Positions 6,125 through 17,938 of a stretch of DNA of 20,010 nucleotides are shown here, in pieces. The stretch is from a virus: IMG/VR virus record IMGVR_UViG_3300020731_000100, positions 1 through 20,010 of that record. One strand, given 5' to 3'. The translations under genes were made by a program, and so were the position numbers. The notes beneath the pieces were generated by a model that did not search any database, was not told the DNA's origin, and worked only from the letters and a program-made list of their open reading frames with translations. Numbering within the stretch: position 1 is the first letter of the stretch; each line of letters begins with the position of its first letter.

Positions 6125-6460
6125 ATGAGAAAACTATGTAAAACTTGCGCTAGTAGACCTGTAGCAGTGAATTATTATAAAGAGGGCAGACCTTTTTATA
6201 GGTCTCAGTGCGATCATTGTTCTAGAGGTAGGGGAAATGGAACCCCTGGCTGGAAACGTGCGGGGTATAAAAAGAAAGATCAGTGTGACAAGTGCGGGTT
6301 CAAATCTAAGAGCCTGGAGATCTTTAATGTATTTTATGTAGACGGCGATTTAAACAACAATCGCCCTAACAATTTAAAAACTATATGTGCGAACTGCCAG
6401 CGTGTTCTTCATAAGGAAGGAGTTCGTTGGACTCAAGGGGATCTGACACCAGATTTTTAA
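6125..6460 (+). CDS. Small zinc-finger, degenerate HNH-like protein
   Basis: The 111-residue basic protein has four CxxC pairs (C5/C8, C29/C32, C54/C57, C88/C91) and ends in an HNH-like core: a DGDLNNNRPNNL stretch (73-84), then ICANCQRVLH. HNH nucleases normally have a His or His-His just before the DGD-type turn and CH after the last CxxC. Here these are FYV and CQ, so the expected catalytic His is absent. It may bind DNA or RNA without cutting. As I recall, close relatives occur in T4-like cyanophages as proteins of unknown role. The start is supported by AAAAAGGGCGG just upstream. Its last 80 bp overlap the 3' end of the kinase gene on the opposite strand. Confidence 0.8.
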   Translation: MRKLCKTCASRPVAVNYYKEGRPFYRSQCDHCSRGRGNGTPGWKRAGYKKKDQCDKCGFKSKSLEIFNVFYVDGDLNNNRPNNLKTICANCQRVLHKEGVRWTQGDLTPDF

Positions 6461-7073
6461 CTTGGGCATAAAGATCATCAATGCTAGTATTATTGTCTAG
6501 CACAAAATCAAAGTTTGTACCAACCCAAGCAGTTTCGCTAGCATGAATTCCGGCACGTTCTAATCTAACTTTACTGGTAGACCAAGTAACGTTACCGTCT
6601 GGCCCTCGGTTGGCACTAACTGCGGCATCATACCATTCGGGTTCTGGACCACGTACAACACGTACTACAATTCCGCCTGCGTCTTTAATTGATTTAATTT
6701 CATTAGGAAAACGACAATCGCTAATAACAATATCGTCTTTACTATTGCGTAGTTTATTTTCTAATGCCGCAATCCAAATATCATCATGGAATGATTTACG
6801 ACAAACTTCAGTGCCCCAATATTGTAGTACCCAACGTGGAGTTAAATGTGGCATATTTAAGCGTTCTGCCCACCATGGATCTACTTGTTCACGCCATTCA
6901 CGGGCTTGCTTTGTACGGCCTTCTAGCATTGTTCTATCCCAACCAAAGACCATACTAACAGCATCTTTCAGTGTATTCGCAAAACTCTCTCGTCGAAATC
7001 CATGAAAATTTGTAAGATAATCAGCAATAGTATCTTTGCCAGAACCAATAAAACCGCACACACCTATAATCAT
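6381..7073 (-). CDS. gp1: Deoxynucleoside monophosphate kinase (T4 gp1-like)
   Basis: This cytoplasmic enzyme phosphorylates dNMPs to dNDPs with ATP and feeds phage DNA synthesis. The 230-residue length is close to T4 gp1 (241). A P-loop GFIGSGKDT lies at residues 7-15, and the typical DIVISDCRFPNE strand-loop follows in the middle, then GGIVVRVVR. AGGAG at 7079-7083 supports the start. It is the only gene here with a perfect host-type sigma-70 promoter (7096-7124), which fits early use. The last 26 codons lie opposite the conserved end of the HNH-like gene; the tail after DLYAQVKNLV is probably not part of the kinase core. It sits among structural genes, away from other nucleotide-metabolism genes. 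Confidence 0.92.
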   Translation of the reverse strand: MIIGVCGFIGSGKDTIADYLTNFHGFRRESFANTLKDAVSMVFGWDRTMLEGRTKQAREWREQVDPWWAERLNMPHLTPRWVLQYWGTEVCRKSFHDDIWIAALENKLRNSKDDIVISDCRFPNEIKSIKDAGGIVVRVVRGPEPEWYDAAVSANRGPDGNVTWSTSKVRLERAGIHASETAWVGTNFDFVLDNNTSIDDLYAQVKNLVSDPLESNELLPYEEHAGSSHI

Positions 7074-7132: not shown

Positions 7133-7891
7133 TTAACCAATTACAAAAGTTAACGGCTGTCCGCCATCTTTGTAGTTAATAATGTCTTGCTCTAGCGTTT
7201 CCATTTCAGCTTTGCCTTCTGCTTTGAGCTGTGCGCCATTGAGACTTGTGCCGCCTTGCGGGCTAGCAATTTGAGCAAACTTTTCACGTGCTTCGCCTAA
7301 CATAACTTTACAGTTTGCTAGAGCATAATCTTTAATCCACACGCCGGCGTAGTTGTCTTGGAATAAAGTAAAATCAGGACGTTGATTATACATCCACAAA
7401 AGAACACTTTCAGATCCTTGCGGACGTTGACTAATACGTAGACGTCTTGTAGGTTGGTCAAATTCAAAGTTGATAAAACTACCAAACATCTTGCCTACTA
7501 AATTTTGATAGCTAGCAAAGGCAAAATATGTGGCTAAACCGCCCATATTACTTGTGCTTAACAAATAGGTGTTTGTGTAGGCTAAGTTGAACGGTTCAAA
7601 TAGACTACCTCCGTCACCTCCGCCTGTTCTAGAACCAATACTTCTACGAAATACCTGTCTAACTGAAATAACTTCCGGAGCAAGTATGTATTCATTAACA
7701 TCTTGTTGTAGTGTCAAAAACGCAAAACTTTCTTCAGTAGAATGTTGGCTTCGTTGACGGTACTTTAACAGCGCACGTTTAATTGCGATATCGTAGTGTT
7801 TTGGGTCTAATTCGACGTCAATCATACCGTCACCTAGGAAGGTTTTGATATAATCTACTACGTCTTTGTATGCTGTATCTAAGTCGCTCAT
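7133..7891 (-). CDS. gp13: Neck protein gp13
   Basis: This is the head-completion/neck protein that links the portal to the tail in T4-like phages. The frame opens upstream as far as 8044, but the start at 7891 is preferred (252 residues). Its N-terminus MSDLDTAYKDVVDYIKTFLG and the next segment MIDVELDPKHYDIAIKRAL match the usual start of cyanophage-type gp13 as I know it, and the upstream extension would run across the start of gp14. Other family-like stretches are RQRSQHSTEESFAFL, EVISVRQVFRR, and near the end LGEAREKFAQIASPQGG. It lacks a clear ribosome binding site, and a late octamer abuts the ATG. The alternative ATG at 7906 has no support. Unlike the usual arrangement, gp14 points the other way. 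Confidence 0.9.
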   Translation of the reverse strand: MSDLDTAYKDVVDYIKTFLGDGMIDVELDPKHYDIAIKRALLKYRQRSQHSTEESFAFLTLQQDVNEYILAPEVISVRQVFRRSIGSRTGGGDGGSLFEPFNLAYTNTYLLSTSNMGGLATYFAFASYQNLVGKMFGSFINFEFDQPTRRLRISQRPQGSESVLLWMYNQRPDFTLFQDNYAGVWIKDYALANCKVMLGEAREKFAQIASPQGGTSLNGAQLKAEGKAEMETLEQDIINYKDGGQPLTFVIG

Positions 7892-7896
7892 ACTTT

Positions 7897-7904
7897 TATT
7901 TACC
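7897..7904 (-). promoter_or_regulatory. Late-type promoter octamer for gp13
   Basis: GGTAAATA on the minus strand, ending 5 nt before the gp13 ATG. With T4 spacing, transcription would start on the A of the ATG itself. It shares base 7904 with the plus-strand octamer for gp14. Confidence 0.5.
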
Positions 7905-7911
7905 ATAAATA
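7904..7911 (+). promoter_or_regulatory. Late-type promoter octamer for gp14
   Basis: CATAAATA on the plus strand differs from TATAAATA only in the first base. It ends 7 nt before the gp14 ATG, which implies a leader of about 2 nt and fits the missing ribosome binding site. Confidence 0.55.
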
Positions 7912-7918
7912 GTAGACT

Positions 7919-9148
7919 ATGCCAAGACTCTCTCTTTACCGTCCCGAAAAGGGCAATGATTTTAAAATGCTCGATAGGGTTATTAACGAGCAATTTCAGG
8001 TAGGCGGAACTGATATTTTTATTCACAAATATATAGGTCCGCAAACTGCCGCGCCCGCTAGCACAGAAGGAGGAGTTCCTGGTGTTGCTAATGCTACTAC
8101 ACCTGAATTAGGAATTCAGGACGTAATTTTCATGGAAAATAGAGATAGAAAGTACGATGCTGATATCTATAGTATTCGTGGAATTTACACAATGAACGAC
8201 ATTGACTTTAATTTAAGTCAATTTGGATTGTTTTTAAATAGCGATGATATTATGATTACATTCCACTTAAGAAATATAGTGGAAACAATTGGTCGTAAAT
8301 TAATGGCTGGAGATGTTTTAGAACTTCCTCACTTAAAAGATGAGTATGCCAGTAACGATGATTTAGTAGCATTGAAAAGATTTTATGTAGTGACTGACGT
8401 AAGTCGTCCTGCGTCTGGTTACAGTCAAACATGGTACCCACATTTACTACGTGCTAAAGTAGGACCATTAGTTGACAGTCAAGAATTTAGTCAAATTCTC
8501 AATGCTCCGGCAGGAGATGGCAATAAAACATTACGAGATGTTATTAGTACATATAATCAGAATATTGCTATTAATAATCAAATTGTTGCCCAAGCAGAAA
8601 TTGACGCTCCACTAAGCGGATACGACACAACTCCATATTATGTTTTACCGTTAGAGGATCGAGGAGACGGAGAAGATACCTTACAGTTAGAAGATGCTAG
8701 TGATACTGAGCTCGATGCTAGTTTAGATAATCCTGCTGTTGATGCTAGTGCTGTATTTGAAAGTCCTGCTAAAGATCTTTATATAGGATACATGACTGGT
8801 GGAATGCCACCTAATGGCGCTCCTTACGGATTTGGAATTGCATTTCCAACACAAGGAATTGTTACAGGACAATTTTATCTTAGAACAGACTTTGTACCTA
8901 ATCGTTTGTTTAGATTTGACGGACAAACATGGGTAGCATGGGCTGACAATTTAAGAATGACTATGTCAAATACTTACGATGCTAACGCAACAAATCAAGA
9001 TCTAACACAACCGCAAAGTAGTACAAGTACAAGATTAACACAGACTACAAGCTTCATTAACAATAATAATACTGCTACAATCGCAGGTCAAATTGTTCCA
9101 GAGCGCCAAGCACTAAGTAAAGCATTAAGACCAAAGGCAGATAATTAA
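7919..9148 (+). CDS. gp14: Neck protein gp14
   Basis: This is the second neck/head-completion protein, which works with gp13 at the head-tail joint. The 409-residue product begins MPRLSLYRPEKGNDFKMLDR and then QVGGTDIFIHKYIGP. It contains ENRDRKYDADIYSIRGIY, DIDFNLSQFGLFL, GDVLELPHLKDEYA and SQTWYPHLLRAKV, all typical of cyanophage-type gp14. T4 gp14 is shorter (256 residues). The extra C-terminal part (about 230-409) is acidic, then carries a module with GQFYLRT (317-323) and FRFDGQTWVAW (331-341) like those in gp18 and gp15, and ends in a Thr/Asn-rich tail. The gene ends 1 nt before gp15 and is probably co-transcribed with it. Confidence 0.9.
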   Translation: MPRLSLYRPEKGNDFKMLDRVINEQFQVGGTDIFIHKYIGPQTAAPASTEGGVPGVANATTPELGIQDVIFMENRDRKYDADIYSIRGIYTMNDIDFNLSQFGLFLNSDDIMITFHLRNIVETIGRKLMAGDVLELPHLKDEYASNDDLVALKRFYVVTDVSRPASGYSQTWYPHLLRAKVGPLVDSQEFSQILNAPAGDGNKTLRDVISTYNQNIAINNQIVAQAEIDAPLSGYDTTPYYVLPLEDRGDGEDTLQLEDASDTELDASLDNPAVDASAVFESPAKDLYIGYMTGGMPPNGAPYGFGIAFPTQGIVTGQFYLRTDFVPNRLFRFDGQTWVAWADNLRMTMSNTYDANATNQDLTQPQSSTSTRLTQTTSFINNNNTATIAGQIVPERQALSKALRPKADN

Positions 9149-9149
9149 A

Positions 9150-10265
9150 ATGGAATTTTTCTACGACGGCCAAGTAAAGCGTTACATCAATCAGTTTATG
9201 CGATTGATGAGTAATTTTAGCTATCAAGATGGTAGTGGCAAACTTACACAAGTTCCTGTTCGATACGGTGACTCTAGTCGACAAGCTGCATGGGCATTAA
9301 CTAAAAACTCAGAGAACATTGTTAATTCTGCGCCTTTTATTGCCTGCTACGTTAAGGGATTAGACTACGATAGAAGTCGCATACAAAATCCATATCATGT
9401 AGATAAGATTAATATTCGAGAACGTGCGTTTGATGAAGTAGGAAATGTCTACTTAAACGAACAAGGTGAAAATTATACCGTTGAACGTTTAATGCCAAGT
9501 CCCTTTAAATTAACTTTTGTAGCAGATATTTGGACAACTAACACAGAACAAAAATTACAAATATTAGAACAGATTCTAGTGTTGTTTAATCCAGCAATGG
9601 AAATACAAACCAGTAATAATTTTATTGACTGGACTAGTTTAAGTTACGTTGAATTAACCGGAACTACTTGGTCAAGCAGACAAATTCCTCAAGGAGTTAG
9701 TAACGATATTGATATTTCCACACTAACTTTTGAAACTCCTGTATGGATCACAACTCCAGCTAAGGTTAAAAAATTGGGTATTGTTACTAAAATTATTGCT
9801 AACATTTTTACAGAACCAGCAGGTACTACATTAAGCACAGGATTAGATTTTGGTATTCCAGTAGTTAAGCATACTGTTACTCCAGCAAATCTAAGTGTAT
9901 ACATTATGAACAATACTGTAACACTTATCCCGCAAGGCGATCCGATTATTGGAGACGAATATACACAAATTCCTATTCCAGCAGGCCCTACGGTTAATTG
10001 GAATTCTGTATTAAATGTATATCCTGGAAAATATCGTTCAGGACTTAGTCAACTTGCGTTTACTAAACCAGACGGTACACAAGTTGTAGGTGTTATTACA
10101 TTAAATCCTAGCGACGATACACAAATGTTAATTAATATTGATCCTGACAGTATTTTAAACACACCATTAACTGATTTAGCAGACATTTATACTAGAGGAA
10201 CAATTAATGCAGTTATTGATCCTACTACATTTAATCCAGGCACAAACATCGATCCTGATACATGA
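9150..10265 (+). CDS. gp15: Tail completion and sheath stabiliser gp15, ending at an in-frame TGA
   Basis: gp15 caps the top of the tail, stops sheath assembly and joins the tail to the neck. The first 225 residues or so match the family: MEFFYDGQVKRYINQFMRLM, VPVRYGDSSRQAAW, then FIACYVKGLDYDRSR, ERLMPSPFKLTFVADIWTTN and QILEQILVLFNP. T4 gp15 has 272 residues; this product has 371 before the TGA at 10263-10265. Beyond the TGA the same frame stays open for 92 codons with protein-like content, so the full gp15 was probably 464 residues with Trp (TGG) at this position. The start is 1 nt after the gp14 stop, which suggests coupled translation. Confidence 0.9.
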   Translation: MEFFYDGQVKRYINQFMRLMSNFSYQDGSGKLTQVPVRYGDSSRQAAWALTKNSENIVNSAPFIACYVKGLDYDRSRIQNPYHVDKINIRERAFDEVGNVYLNEQGENYTVERLMPSPFKLTFVADIWTTNTEQKLQILEQILVLFNPAMEIQTSNNFIDWTSLSYVELTGTTWSSRQIPQGVSNDIDISTLTFETPVWITTPAKVKKLGIVTKIIANIFTEPAGTTLSTGLDFGIPVVKHTVTPANLSVYIMNNTVTLIPQGDPIIGDEYTQIPIPAGPTVNWNSVLNVYPGKYRSGLSQLAFTKPDGTQVVGVITLNPSDDTQMLINIDPDSILNTPLTDLADIYTRGTINAVIDPTTFNPGTNIDPDT

Positions 10266-10544
10266 TACTTAATATTAGAAGACATAGGCAATACTGATGT
10301 AGAAAACGGTCAAGGTCCTATTGCCTGGCGCAACTCAGACAACACTGATTTTTATGCCAAGGCAAATGATATTATTCAATGGGACGGTGCTAGATGGAAC
10401 GTTATATTCGCTTCTGAGAATAACCCAACTGTACTTTACATAACTAATTCATACACTGGCATTCAATACAAGTGGGATGGTGAATCATGGACCAAGAGCT
10501 ACGAAGGAGTATACGATGCCGGTAACTGGCGTTTGATACTATGA
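10266..10544 (+). pseudogene. gp15: In-frame C-terminal extension of gp15 beyond the TGA
   Basis: Ninety-two sense codons continue the gp15 frame after the TGA and stop at TGA 10542-10544. The translation has a YLILEDIGN start, ANDIIQWDGARWNVIF, then YITNSYTGIQYKWDGESW and GNWRLIL at the end. These DG-x-x-W hairpins resemble modules in gp14 and gp18. From memory, gp15 of related phages ends in a similar segment. The stretch has no plausible start of its own with a ribosome binding site. Its stop overlaps the Nudix ATG as ATGA. It is either the remnant of a truncated gp15, a segment made by TGA readthrough, or real coding sequence broken by one wrong base (A for G) in the data. Confidence 0.75.
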
Positions 10545-10981
10545 CAAAAATAATATGTAGTGGCGGGTTATTCCTAAGTAAAGAAACAAATAGATTTTTA
10601 TTCCTATTGCGTAATCAAGGACGAACCGCAGGAACTTGGGGACTTGTTGGCGGTAAACAAGAACCAGATGATGCTACAGCATATCAAGCATTAGAAAGAG
10701 AAATTAGCGAGGAGGTAGGAAAAACTCCGCCTATTAAGAAAATTATTCCTCTTGAATTATACACTAGCGAAGACCAAAATTTTCATTTTAATACATACGT
10801 TCTTATTGTAGAAAAAGAATTTATTCCTACTCTAAACAAAGAACATGTAGGATATGCTTGGTGTGATTTAAACAATTGGCCAAAGCCATTACATCAAGGC
10901 GTAAAACGTAGCCTATCTAGTAAGATAAACAAAACAAAAATTGAAATTATTTTAGAATTACTCGGGGAATACAAGCCCTGA
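10541..10981 (+). CDS. Nudix hydrolase
   Basis: Nudix enzymes cleave nucleoside diphosphates linked to another group (NDP-sugars, NADH, ADP-ribose, oxidised dNTPs, RNA caps). The 146-residue product has the box at about residues 38-60: GGK, EPDD, then REISEEVG (53-60), with the metal-binding RE-x-x-EE glutamates E54, E57 and E58 in place. The first half of the box is one residue longer than the standard G-x5-E-x7-REUxEExGU form and has D in place of the first E. The substrate cannot be told from sequence. No ribosome binding site is visible; the ATG overlaps the TGA of the gp15 extension (ATGA), so translation probably depends on ribosomes arriving from gp15. Its last 24 bp overlap the convergent gene. 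Confidence 0.88.
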   Translation: MTKIICSGGLFLSKETNRFLFLLRNQGRTAGTWGLVGGKQEPDDATAYQALEREISEEVGKTPPIKKIIPLELYTSEDQNFHFNTYVLIVEKEFIPTLNKEHVGYAWCDLNNWPKPLHQGVKRSLSSKINKTKIEIILELLGEYKP

Positions 10982-12038: not shown

Positions 12039-12390
12039 CCCCCGGGGCTACATTCGGTTTAGGTAGTGTAGCGTCGATCGGAAGAGGTCTTTTAGCATCA
12101 TTACCGATTTTTGGAATAGTAGATGCTGATGATAATCCGTGTGTTTTAAAGATTACATTCCACAAATCTTGAATGATTTCTGGTTCTTGACTAACGTCAG
12201 AATCTTGATATAATCTATACACATTGGTGTTAGAAATTGGAAAATGTGGATCATTTGAACCAGGGTCATCAACTGTAATAGTTGTATGAATCCATAGAGC
12301 ATGTGGTTCATCCATAGGATCTCCGTTTGCTCGAGATGTCTCGGCAGTATATCTAATTTGATCAATTGTTGTTGTTTTAGTTATTGCCAT
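12034..12390 (-). CDS. Hypothetical tail-region protein
   Basis: I do not recognise this family. The 118-residue product starts [14 protein letters not shown] and has [24 protein letters not shown], then [14 protein letters not shown], and a Pro/Ala-rich end. The MAIT start, the beta-then-helix layout and the length recall the two paralogues downstream, but similarity is too weak to claim by eye. Its first 14 bp overlap the 3' end of the large fibre gene, and AAGGAAG within the fibre coding sequence serves as ribosome binding site, so the two are translated from the same message. Confidence 0.75.
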
Positions 12391-15300
12391 TTATCAGCTT
12401 CCTTACCATTTCTTTTAAGTCATCAATTTCGTTTTGTTGTTCTTTGATAGCTTCTATTAGAAGACCTACGGTATTTGCGTAGCTCAATCCATACATATCT
12501 GTTTCTTCATTGTATGTAACCAATTCTGGAACAACTTCGTTAACTTCCTGAGCAATTAACCCTAGTTGACGCATTGTACGTTTAACTTGTGGGTTACCCT
12601 CTAAGTCTTCATTTTCTACTTTTTCGTAGTATACACCACGTAATTGCTTAACTTTATTTAATGCGTTATCAATTGTGACGATATTTTTCTTGTATCGTGA
12701 GTCAGAAGTTGCGTATACGTTACCCTGGGCATAAATGCTACCAGTTGAGAAAATACGATATCCGTTATTACCACTAGTACCAAAGTTAGAGTTACCAGAG
12801 TTATATGTCCAGTATACTAACCAACCCCAAGATTGGTCATATAGTCCAATATCTGTACCGCCACGACCCATTAGGGTAAACGAAGCGTCTACGTTATATC
12901 CTTGCCATCCGCTACGTCCGCCTGAGTATGTACTTACGTTACCATAAGATCCGCCTTGGTTCTCTGGCCACCATAATCCGTGTCCATAACTTTCGCTATA
13001 CAATCCAGTACCGCCTTGAGCACGGAACCAGTTGTTTGCGTGAACTGTAGAAATATAGCTGTCTGATCTAGGAACAATATAGTAACCGGTGTTAGCAGAG
13101 TCATAATAAATCGGTGACTGCATTGCGCCGTTGGCCCAAACAGTTGATCCGTTATCCCAGTGTAAGTTCCATCCTACATAACTTGTGGTATTACCATAAC
13201 CTAAATACCATGCGTTAGCAGATAAGTTAGTTACAAGACCCCAATACGTTGAAGCATTGTTAATTGCTAGAGCACTACCGTTATTGCTGTATGCGTTGGC
13301 TTGATGTGTTGCGCCGGCAGCTGTAGTAATATAATAGAATACAGATGTACTAGGTGGATTTAAGTAGTAGCTAGTATTGTTGTTTAGGTACATGACACCG
13401 TTGGTGACTTTTTGTATATCCCAACTTGCCCAGTTACCGTTTAAGAAACCATAGCTACCGCCGCCGTTACCGTATAATTGATATCCAAATTGTCCACCAC
13501 TACCGATACCTAAAATACCAGTATCGCCTTGACTTGATTGAACTTGTAAGTTACCATTACCGCCATTAGAAACAGTTTTACTTGCGCCAAATTGAACTGC
13601 CGACAATACACTTGTACTGCGAGGTATTAAGTAATAGGCTGTATTTTGCGAGTCGTAAACTGTGCCGCCTACGTAAATTGGGCCGTTACGATAGTAGTTA
13701 ATATATGCGCCATAGCTTGCGCTAGCAGATTCGTAATGTAAGTTACCGTTAGTTGCCGCAATTTGAGCAATACCCGAACCTTGGTCAATACCATTGCCAC
13801 CGATATGGAACTGTGCTGACCAGGAAGGGTTAGGACCAAAACGTATACCGTTATATGTAAAGCTGTTGTAACCGGCCGGATTCATGTAGTAACCGGTGTT
13901 ACCATAAGCATAAACATAGCTATGGTATGCGGCTTGTCCAGTTAATACTGTATACGGACCTAATGCTAGTCCAACGTCAGTTGCTCCACTCCATGTTGGA
14001 GATCCCCATGAAGTACCGACTTGGTCAAGTCTTATTAAGTGGCCGCCGTTACTACCTAAACCCCACCATCCTGCTCCACTCCAGTTAGAAACAAACGCCG
14101 CTTGTGTTGTATAAGTTGCACTTGGGTTACCAATTACACCGTAACCGTATAAAGAGTTAATTACACTTTCGCCACTAGCTTTTAGATAATATGTTGTATT
14201 AGCATTGTCATACATATTACCGCCAACATACAAGTTGCCAGTAATAGTTAAGTTACCTGATGCGCTACCGCCGCCTGTGATTGTACCGGCAGAGTTAGCA
14301 TAGTTAGAAGTATCAGCATACCCGGCGTAGATTTTACCCCAACCTGTCCATGTTCCGTTTTCTTTAAATCGAATGTTTAAGTAAGGATTGCCATAACCAT
14401 AACGGTTAATAGCAGTTTGCATTGCGTAACTGCTGTAGGCATAGTCGTTGCCTAGGCCTTGGTTCATTACATAGTACTGATATAACCCGCCTGGTCCGTC
14501 TGTTACTGCGCTATCTTGATGTACAAAATAGAAACCATAGCCTGCTGGACCAGAGAAGCTTTGATAAGTAGTATGATTGTAACCTTGATTATTAAACAGT
14601 TGACTACGTGTTACGCTTGCGCCAAAACCAGAATCATATAATGCTGTAGAATATCCACCTGCGTTACCTGTAATGCTACCAGTAATTGTATTTGAAACTG
14701 TTAGGCCTGAGAATATACTTGTACCAGCTGGTTTAGCATAATATGATGTATTGCTTGAATCATAAAAATACGGTGCTCGCATATCTGTAACAGCATAAGC
14801 AGAACCGTTAACGTTTAATTGATATGTTGCGGCAATTGTTGTACCAATAACTGTGTTACCAGTATTATTTTGAATCGAAAATACGTTTGTACCTGCTGAT
14901 GTACTTGTAGCATAACGGAAGATCCAACCGCGACTACCTGTGTCCATTACAAAGTAAGTGGCATAGTCACTATTAACACCGCCGTGTGTTCCGTATGTAC
15001 CAACTGCCTTAAACATCATGTTAGATGTTGTACCAGCGATAGTAGTCCATAAACTTACACCGTTACCAAAAGATGTGCTGTCTCCGTTTTTGTTAGTAGC
15101 AATACCACCTACTAAAGTTAAGTAGTATAGGTATGAGTTAGCACTAGGCTGTAAGTAATATGCGTTATTAGAATAATCGTAGAAATATGTAGCGTAGATA
15201 GGACCGTTAAAGTTACCAGTAACTTGACTGTTTGTAACATATCCTACGTCATTAGTTAACTGACTTAATTTAGTTAAGTTTTGTGCGTTCCAGTCTAGTA

Positions 15301-17938
15301 CATACGCACTACCTGTATAATAGTACGGTTGTTTGTCACTGTTCTGAATCTTAAATCCAGTACCAGAAGTGCTATTCCAGAAATAAGCATCAGTAGTCGA
15401 AAACTGTACATAACCTACAGTGGTACCGTTGCTTTGGAAAAGCATTTGCGGATTAACTTGCGTAGTGTTTAAATATAATCCGTCAGTTGCGTTGGTACTA
15501 TGTGTAAATCTACCAGTAACGTCAATTAAACCACCTAAGGTAGAAACACCGCCGTTTGGTCTAAATGCTATTTGAGTAGCATCAAATTCCATTGGGCCAT
15601 ATGTAGAATTTCCTCTATTGTAACTAATACCATATGCGGTTGTGCCGCCTATACCAATTTCAAAAGCTAATGCGGTATCTTGTGCGCTACTATACCAGCC
15701 AGTGGCACGTATTTGTCCACCAGAACTAATTGTTGCCGCAGATCCTAAGTTACCGGTAAATCTTCCTGTTCCTGCAACGTCAAGCATATATGCTGGAGTT
15801 GTTGCCGCACCAACTTTAACGTTGCCGCCGCCAGATCCTAAGAATGTATATCCACCGCCACCTGCTATATCAACGTTACCTGCTACATATTTTTGTAGGT
15901 ATGTTACACCAGAAGCAGTAGCCGATTCGATCGCAATATCGCCTTGACCATAACCTTTAATGTTAGCCGCTGTAGATGATCTATCAAAATATGTAAGGTA
16001 ATTTGTATGGTCTGTTAAATCGATAACTGTTGCTTGAACAATGTAAAATATTAACGGACTGCCTGATGATGGAGCAGGACTACCTGAAATATAAAAATAG
16101 TTAGTAGACGCAAATGTTCCACTATCACCAGTCATTACCACGTAAGCGTATTCTTCCCACTTACCTGTACCCACGTTGTTTGTTAACCAATAAGTTTGAC
16201 TGTTATTACCAATACCGTTTGATGCCCAGTTAATTGTATAACCAACTGGCAATAATGTTTTAAATGTTGCTACTAGTACTCTATTCGGACTAGTACCTGT
16301 ACTAAATGTAAATCCGCCAAAACCCGGACTTTGTGAGTTACCAGCAATTCTAACTTGTAGAGCATAGTTACTTCCGCCTAATCCGTTAGCGGTTGCGTTA
16401 GGGGATCCTACAGGAGCAGTGATCCTTGTAATTGTAACGTTACCTGATCCGTTATTATCATAAACAGAAATACCGTTTAAGCCGCTGTAAAAGTTTTCAT
16501 CAGGATATAATCTCTTACCACCAATACCTGCGGCAGTATAACCAATTGTTGGAGCACCTGCTAGGTTAGTATCTCCTGGTGTATACCAATTTGTTCTATT
16601 ATTGAATTTTAATCCGCCAGGGGCACCGTACCCTGTTGCTCCAACGTTAAGGTTAGCACCATCATAAGTAAATCCACTTGAACCGGATAATACTCCAGAA
16701 CCGTTTACATATATAACTTGGTTGGCGGAGCCTGCCGATACACCAGCACCAGTTGAACCAGCAACACCAGTCGCGCCTTGTGGTCCAGTGGCACCAGTAG
16801 CACCAGTTGATCCTAATCCTGTGGCACCAGTTGGGCCAGTAGACCCAGTAGCACCGTTAGATCCGTTTGTACCTTGTTGTCCAGTAGCACCAGTAGCACC
16901 TGCCGAACCAGCAGATCCAGTTTGTCCTGTCGCCCCAGTTTGTCCTGTTGCTCCAGTGGCACCTTGTGCTCCGGGTGTACCTGCTGTACCAGCACTACCT
17001 GTCGCTCCGGGAGCTCCCGTTGCGCCTTGAGGACCTGTGGCACCTGTGGCTCCGATAGCACCTGTGGCTCCTGTACCACCGCCTTGTCCACTTACACCAG
17101 ATGCCCCTTGAGGACCTGTAGCACCTGTTGCACCAATAAATCCAGATGCTCCTGTAGCACCTTGATTACCAATAACGTTAAAAATCCATGAAGCGTATGT
17201 ACCTGCTCCGCTAACCGCAACAACGTTAACTGTAATTGTTAAGCTGATAGGGTTAACTGAGGTAACCATACCCTGCATGTTAATTGTAGGAACAGTTTGA
17301 TAATTTACACTAACATAAGTACCTTGTTGATACGCACCAAGTTGGTTAACTGCCCATGTTTGAGAACCTAATCCAATTGTTACAGCAGAGGTAGAAGTGA
17401 CATTATTATAACCTGGTCCAGTTGCTCCAGTTGCTCCAGTAGAACCAACAGTTCCCGAACTACCTGCGCTACCTGTAGCACCTATCGGACCGGTAGCACC
17501 AGTTGCCCCTAACGGTCCTGTAGCACCAGTTGATCCAGTTGCCCCTGGATTTCCGCTAGGGCCAGTAGCACCTGTAGCACCAGTAGAACCTTGTGTACCA
17601 CCAGTACCTGCTTGTCCTGTTGCTCCTACAGGGCCAGTAGCACCTGTAGATCCCGTAAAACCAGTTGCGCCAGTTGATCCAGTTGCCCCTGTATAACCAG
17701 TTGCGCCCGTAGCTCCTGTAGCACCAATATATCCCGTAGCACCTGTAGCACCTGTAGCACCCGCAGGACCAGTTGATCCCGAATTTGCTGGTGTAAAATA
17801 AAGGTTACCTGTACCGTCTGTAGCAATAACGTTACCAGATGCCCCCGCATTCGCAGGCAAGGTAAGAGATACTGTCCCCGTACTAGGAGATTTTAAGGTT
17901 ATTGAGCCTGAGGCGCCGGTATCGAAATTAATTGACAT
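12377..17938 (-). CDS. Collagen-like tail fibre with S74 self-cleaving chaperone
   Basis: This is a likely receptor-binding fibre, 1853 residues. Visible parts in order: an N-terminal head (1-52); collagen-like Gly-x-Thr repeats (53-176); a beta domain (177-258) with the [20 protein letters not shown] type seen in other phage tail proteins; a second collagen-like stretch (259-399); a beta-sandwich-like region (about 440-660); fibre shaft modules, including an LTNDVGYVT motif; a pyocin-knob-like part ending in [13 protein letters not shown]; and seven copies of a 'YDxxNTxYYLxPxxxS' unit. Residues 1744-1853 are an intramolecular chaperone with the SDSRYKKNI signature, [13 protein letters not shown] and a C-terminal coiled coil. 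A late octamer lies 18 nt before the ATG; the ribosome binding site is weak. Confidence 0.92.
12380..12706 (-). other. Peptidase S74 intramolecular chaperone domain
   Basis: Codons for residues 1745-1853 of the fibre. Known S74 domains trimerise the fibre and then cut themselves off before the Ser of the SDxRxK motif. Here S1745 and K1750 have the same five-residue spacing as the Ser/Lys pair of endosialidase. Cleavage would fall between T1744 and S1745 and release a chaperone of 109 residues. The C-terminal [18 protein letters not shown] helix is a typical trimeric coiled coil. Confidence 0.85.
13056..15200 (-). repeat. Seven 'YDxxNTxYYLxP' fibre modules
   Basis: Seven degenerate copies of one unit are spread through the fibre, with cores [72 protein letters not shown] and [12 protein letters not shown]. 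Each is followed by a Ser and then a hydrophobic strand. Similar units occur in many T4-like phage fibres. The copies are separated by unrelated segments of varied length, which suggests each caps a shaft segment. Confidence 0.75.
16742..17164 (-). repeat. Second collagen-like GAT repeat stretch
   Basis: About 47 Gly-x-y triplets (fibre residues 259-399) dominated by GAT and GPQ/GSA-type triplets with few breaks. Thr in the third position is usual in bacterial and phage collagen-like proteins, which lack hydroxyproline. The GGTGCTACTGG-type DNA is internally repetitive, so copy number could change by slippage or recombination. Confidence 0.85.
17411..17782 (-). repeat. First collagen-like GAT repeat stretch
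   Basis: About 41 Gly-x-y triplets (fibre residues 53-176), with runs of GAT broken by GYI, GYT, GFT and GST triplets. It should form a rigid triple helix near the N-terminal, particle-side end of the fibre. Confidence 0.85.

Follow-up and report, generated by a model that had tools for sequence, protein, structure and literature searches.

The window analysed here is an entire virus record of 20,010 bases, in which a gp15 reading frame opens at 9150 and meets a TGA at 10263-10265, giving an ORF (9150-10265) of 371 aa that ends in NIDPDT. Past this TGA, the same frame encodes 92 further residues, YLILEDIGNTDVENGQGPIAWRNSDNTDFYAKANDIIQWDGARWNVIFASENNPTVLYITNSYTGIQYKWDGESWTKSYEGVYDAGNWRLIL, and ends at a second TGA at 10542-10544, which overlaps the ATG (10541) of a 146-aa Nudix ORF as ATGA. 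The locus raises the question of whether the first TGA is a regulatory device, a recoded sense codon or a private change in a single record. The features concerned are as follows.

7967-9148, + strand: neck protein 5' of gp15 (virion structural protein, gp14 position; phrog_11591, 1.9e-70)
9150-10262, + strand: gp15, codons 1-371, 5' of the TGA; T4-like tail terminator / tail sheath stabiliser (PF16724, phrog_11196, Foldseek)
10263-10265, + strand: private in-frame TGA, codon 372 (codon survey of 80 relatives)
10266-10541, + strand: conserved C-terminal domain of gp15, codons 373-464, frame unchanged (alignment, dN/dS, predicted structure)
10542-10544, + strand: normal gp15 stop TGA, in ATGA overlap with the Nudix start (sequence; overlap in 59 of 80 relatives)
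10541-10981, + strand: Nudix hydrolase, probably translated via coupling to gp15 (Pfam NUDIX, 1.5e-12; phrog_1198, 5.9e-21; no SD-like 5-mer)

Elsewhere in the window, the divergent neck genes at 7133-8044 (- strand) and 7967-9148 (+ strand) may overlap at their 5' ends (7967-8044), their true starts being uncertain. A small Cys-rich ORF (+ strand), HNH-like by eye, extends into the 3' end of the dNMP kinase gene, which lies on the - strand (6125-6460 and 6381-7073); the small ORF is open in several relatives too. The very long collagen-like (GATGATG) gene at 12377-17938 appears to encode a fibre, the C-terminus of which resembles, by eye, a peptidase S74 chaperone domain.

gp15 and its C-terminal domain

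Residues 4-250 of gp15 are covered by the Pfam family PF16724 (T4-gp15_tss; 1.4e-25), with a score over this core domain of 90.4 bits against the curated Pfam cut-off of 25, and the protein matches phrog_11196 (9.3e-78). Its predicted fold, a model of moderate confidence (mean pLDDT 72), retrieved the T4 gp15 structures 4huh, 4hud and 9mkb in Foldseek (E ~1e-9), and T4 gp15 was also found by sequence using the family profile. In T4, a hexameric ring of gp15 terminates the tail (PMC3004832). The likeness to T4 gp15 (PF16724; PDB 3j2m, 4hud, 4huh) lies in residues 4-250, by sequence and by fold, and in the context of neck genes. The jumbo-phage gp15 family is ~200 residues longer than T4 gp15 (272 aa), and the C-terminal domain that would be lost to the TGA is part of this addition.

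The same gene is annotated at full length (~441-460 aa) in five isolated jumbo phages, its CDS coordinates giving 460 aa in Phosso, 456 in PA5oct, 457 in Atu_ph07, 441 in RaK2 and 445 in GAP32. In PA5oct it is one 456-aa CDS carrying an ESI-MS/MS note. While the window record has a TGA at the site, none of the five has a stop there, and Phosso, PA5oct and Atu_ph07, isolates at 35-39% identity, have Arg-Tyr. A Nudix gene follows gp15 in PA5oct, RaK2 and GAP32, where the gene order virion structural protein - gp15 - Nudix is also found.

Relatives were taken as the 80 best from IMG/VR, 46 of them distinct below 95% identity; the nearest seen are ~78% identical in DNA and 82% in aa, and near-identical records may be missing from collections, so that a TGA fixed in this phage species could have escaped notice. 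At the given base composition, an open stretch of 92 codons would arise at random with a probability of ~0.003; decisively, the run past the TGA aligns over its full length with gp15 of all 80 relatives, and is therefore beyond chance. This bears out the preliminary description, in which gp15 was cut by an in-frame TGA and its frame then stayed open for 92 codons of protein-like content. Relatives ending at the site would have argued against a longer gp15; none of the 80 does, and thus the long form is the normal gp15. We read gp15 of this jumbo myophage as a single gene spanning 9150-10544 (464 codons), with the 92 codons forming its usual C-terminal domain.

Comparison with the nearest relatives (82% aa), at a dS close to 1, gave a dN/dS of 0.06 for the core and similar values for the middle (0.16) and the extension (0.15-0.16). 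Measured by that divergence, the stop must be recent unless the C-terminal domain is still made. Since purifying selection on the extension is expected under functional readthrough too, dN/dS by itself decides neither between these two nor between a private change and readthrough. The C-terminal domain was predicted with a pLDDT of 74-91 per ten residues, its first strand lying at residues 371-375; the TGA would thus sit inside a predicted strand.

Short W-D-G-x-x-W / F-D-G-Q-x-W motifs recur at 8896-8960, in the gp14-position protein, and at 10376-10420 and 10465-10500, in the gp15 extension, and perhaps represent a shared small module. In one relative (L091:7332-8996), gp15 has an in-frame insertion of ~80 codons right after the conserved TRYLILEDIG motif, within the C-terminal domain.

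The TGA site across relatives

In all 80 relatives the gp15 frame continues past the site, and an in-frame stop was found nowhere in their aligned gp15 (0/80). The residue at the site is Arg in 68 and Thr in 10, the remaining 2 having a gap. Arg is encoded by AGA (30), CGT (20), CGA (13), AGG (3) or CGC (2), and Thr by ACA (6), ACT (2), ACC (1) or ACG (1), with neither TGG nor TGA at the site in any of the 80. Alignment with related gp15 had been suggested as a check for Trp at the site and for the same C-terminus; the C-terminus was shared by 80 of 80, while Trp never occurred. Trp was thus rejected as the ancestral residue at codon 372, and the proposed route from TGG to TGA gives way to one from CGA, a single C>T change. 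A search for TGA at the same motif in other records returned three chance matches, all outside gp15. Of eight records returned by a second motif search, at least seven encode gp15 relatives, and Arg was the residue at the site in each one read out.

On these comparisons the TGA is very probably a private single-base change and not a regulatory device. A conserved Arg codon 372 would have become TGA, most simply through a single C>T transition, at 10263, in a presumed ancestral CGA. Either the metagenome consensus would have picked up a base error or minor variant, or the sampled phage would have acquired a nonsense mutation very recently. That the TGA occurs in this record and in none of the 80 relatives supports base error and recent nonsense mutation, both raised at the outset, as a pair. 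As every relative keeps the C-terminal domain, we lean slightly towards an error or non-fixed variant over a nonsense mutation. A real TGA would cost the tail terminator its entire C-terminal domain.

Readthrough, recoding and fixed truncation

Programmed UGA readthrough yielding a short and a long gp15 was an option of the preliminary description, and is considered here as specific to this lineage. The stop stands at the beginning of the C-terminal domain (strand 371-375), the 92-codon frame is open and under constraint, the Nudix start 3' of it appears coupled and T4 gp15 is itself short (272 aa), all of which would suit such a device. However, the stop falls within a predicted strand and not in a linker, at an Arg that is kept even at the 35-39% identity of the isolates, and is shared by none of the 80 relatives, although near-identical records may be hidden. 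The stop here is UGA-U, a context that usually gives efficient termination in bacteria. The stem 20 nt 3' of the TGA did not stand out from shuffles (z -0.85), and in four relatives the region 3' of the site takes a different fold; an RNA stimulator there was rejected on these grounds. One relative (L003) folds better than shuffles in this region (z -3.05), with a different structure and no stop. Neither a leaky context nor a conserved stimulatory structure was thus found at the site. An Rfam scan of the window was empty. Searches of the phage readthrough literature turned up nothing on gp15 specifically. The A1 protein of Q-beta is a readthrough virion protein whose stop is conserved and functional; gp15 resembles it in having a stop followed by a long open in-frame extension, but differs in that its stop is private to one record. 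We consider readthrough very improbable, and give equally little credence to the case in which this phage species carries the TGA as a fixed feature with a set rate of readthrough, which would provide two tail-terminator forms and meter the coupled Nudix.

General recoding of TGA to a sense codon, by phage or host, would account for a single in-frame TGA within a conserved gene. Yet there was no other in-frame TGA in ~5,900 codons of the window, in which TGG occurs 101 times; TGA terminates four other genes or frames there, with Nudix among the genes so ended, and ends gp15 itself in most relatives. A tRNA scan found no tRNA gene in the window. The early view that recoding was unlikely is thus strengthened, and we regard it as the remotest of the explanations. 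Comparison with the ORFs of relatives revealed no other interrupted gene in the window; a candidate at 1-1545 (stop near 1500) was dismissed, as its stop was judged to fall within the gap that follows the tube gene, 5' of where the candidate itself starts.

A private single-base change also includes, as a sub-case, a fixed truncation, whereby a 371-aa gp15 suffices for the phage and the 92 codons are left over as a very young pseudogene. The T4 homologue (272 aa) does without such a domain, and the gp15 core (4-250) is intact. Against this, the C-terminal domain is kept in 80 of 80 relatives and in distant isolates, the 92 codons are free of other decay and Nudix would lose its coupled ribosomes, so that we hold a fixed truncation to be rather unlikely.

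Coupling of the Nudix gene to gp15

The overlap of the extension stop with the Nudix ATG, described earlier as ATGA, is seen at 10541-10544. The claim that Nudix has no ribosome binding site also stood, as no SD-like 5-mer was found at its start; such 5-mers (AGGAG/GGAG-type) are present at several other genes of the window. A start-stop overlap of gp15 and Nudix in the correct frame occurs in 59 of the 80 relatives (52 ATGA, 6 GTGA, 1 TTGA), and only 12 of these 59 have SD-like 5-mers. Because the overlap is conserved, the suggested translational coupling of Nudix to gp15 is likely real, a fair inference from sequence comparison. Nudix would probably be started by ribosomes finishing at the ATGA overlap, and a real TGA in gp15 would then be polar on Nudix, lowering its translation and expression.

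For annotation, the 464 codons of gp15 in this phage should be recorded as a single, interrupted gene rather than as a case of readthrough. As a by-product, the analysis points to a conserved start-stop overlap that likely couples Nudix to gp15 in these phages.
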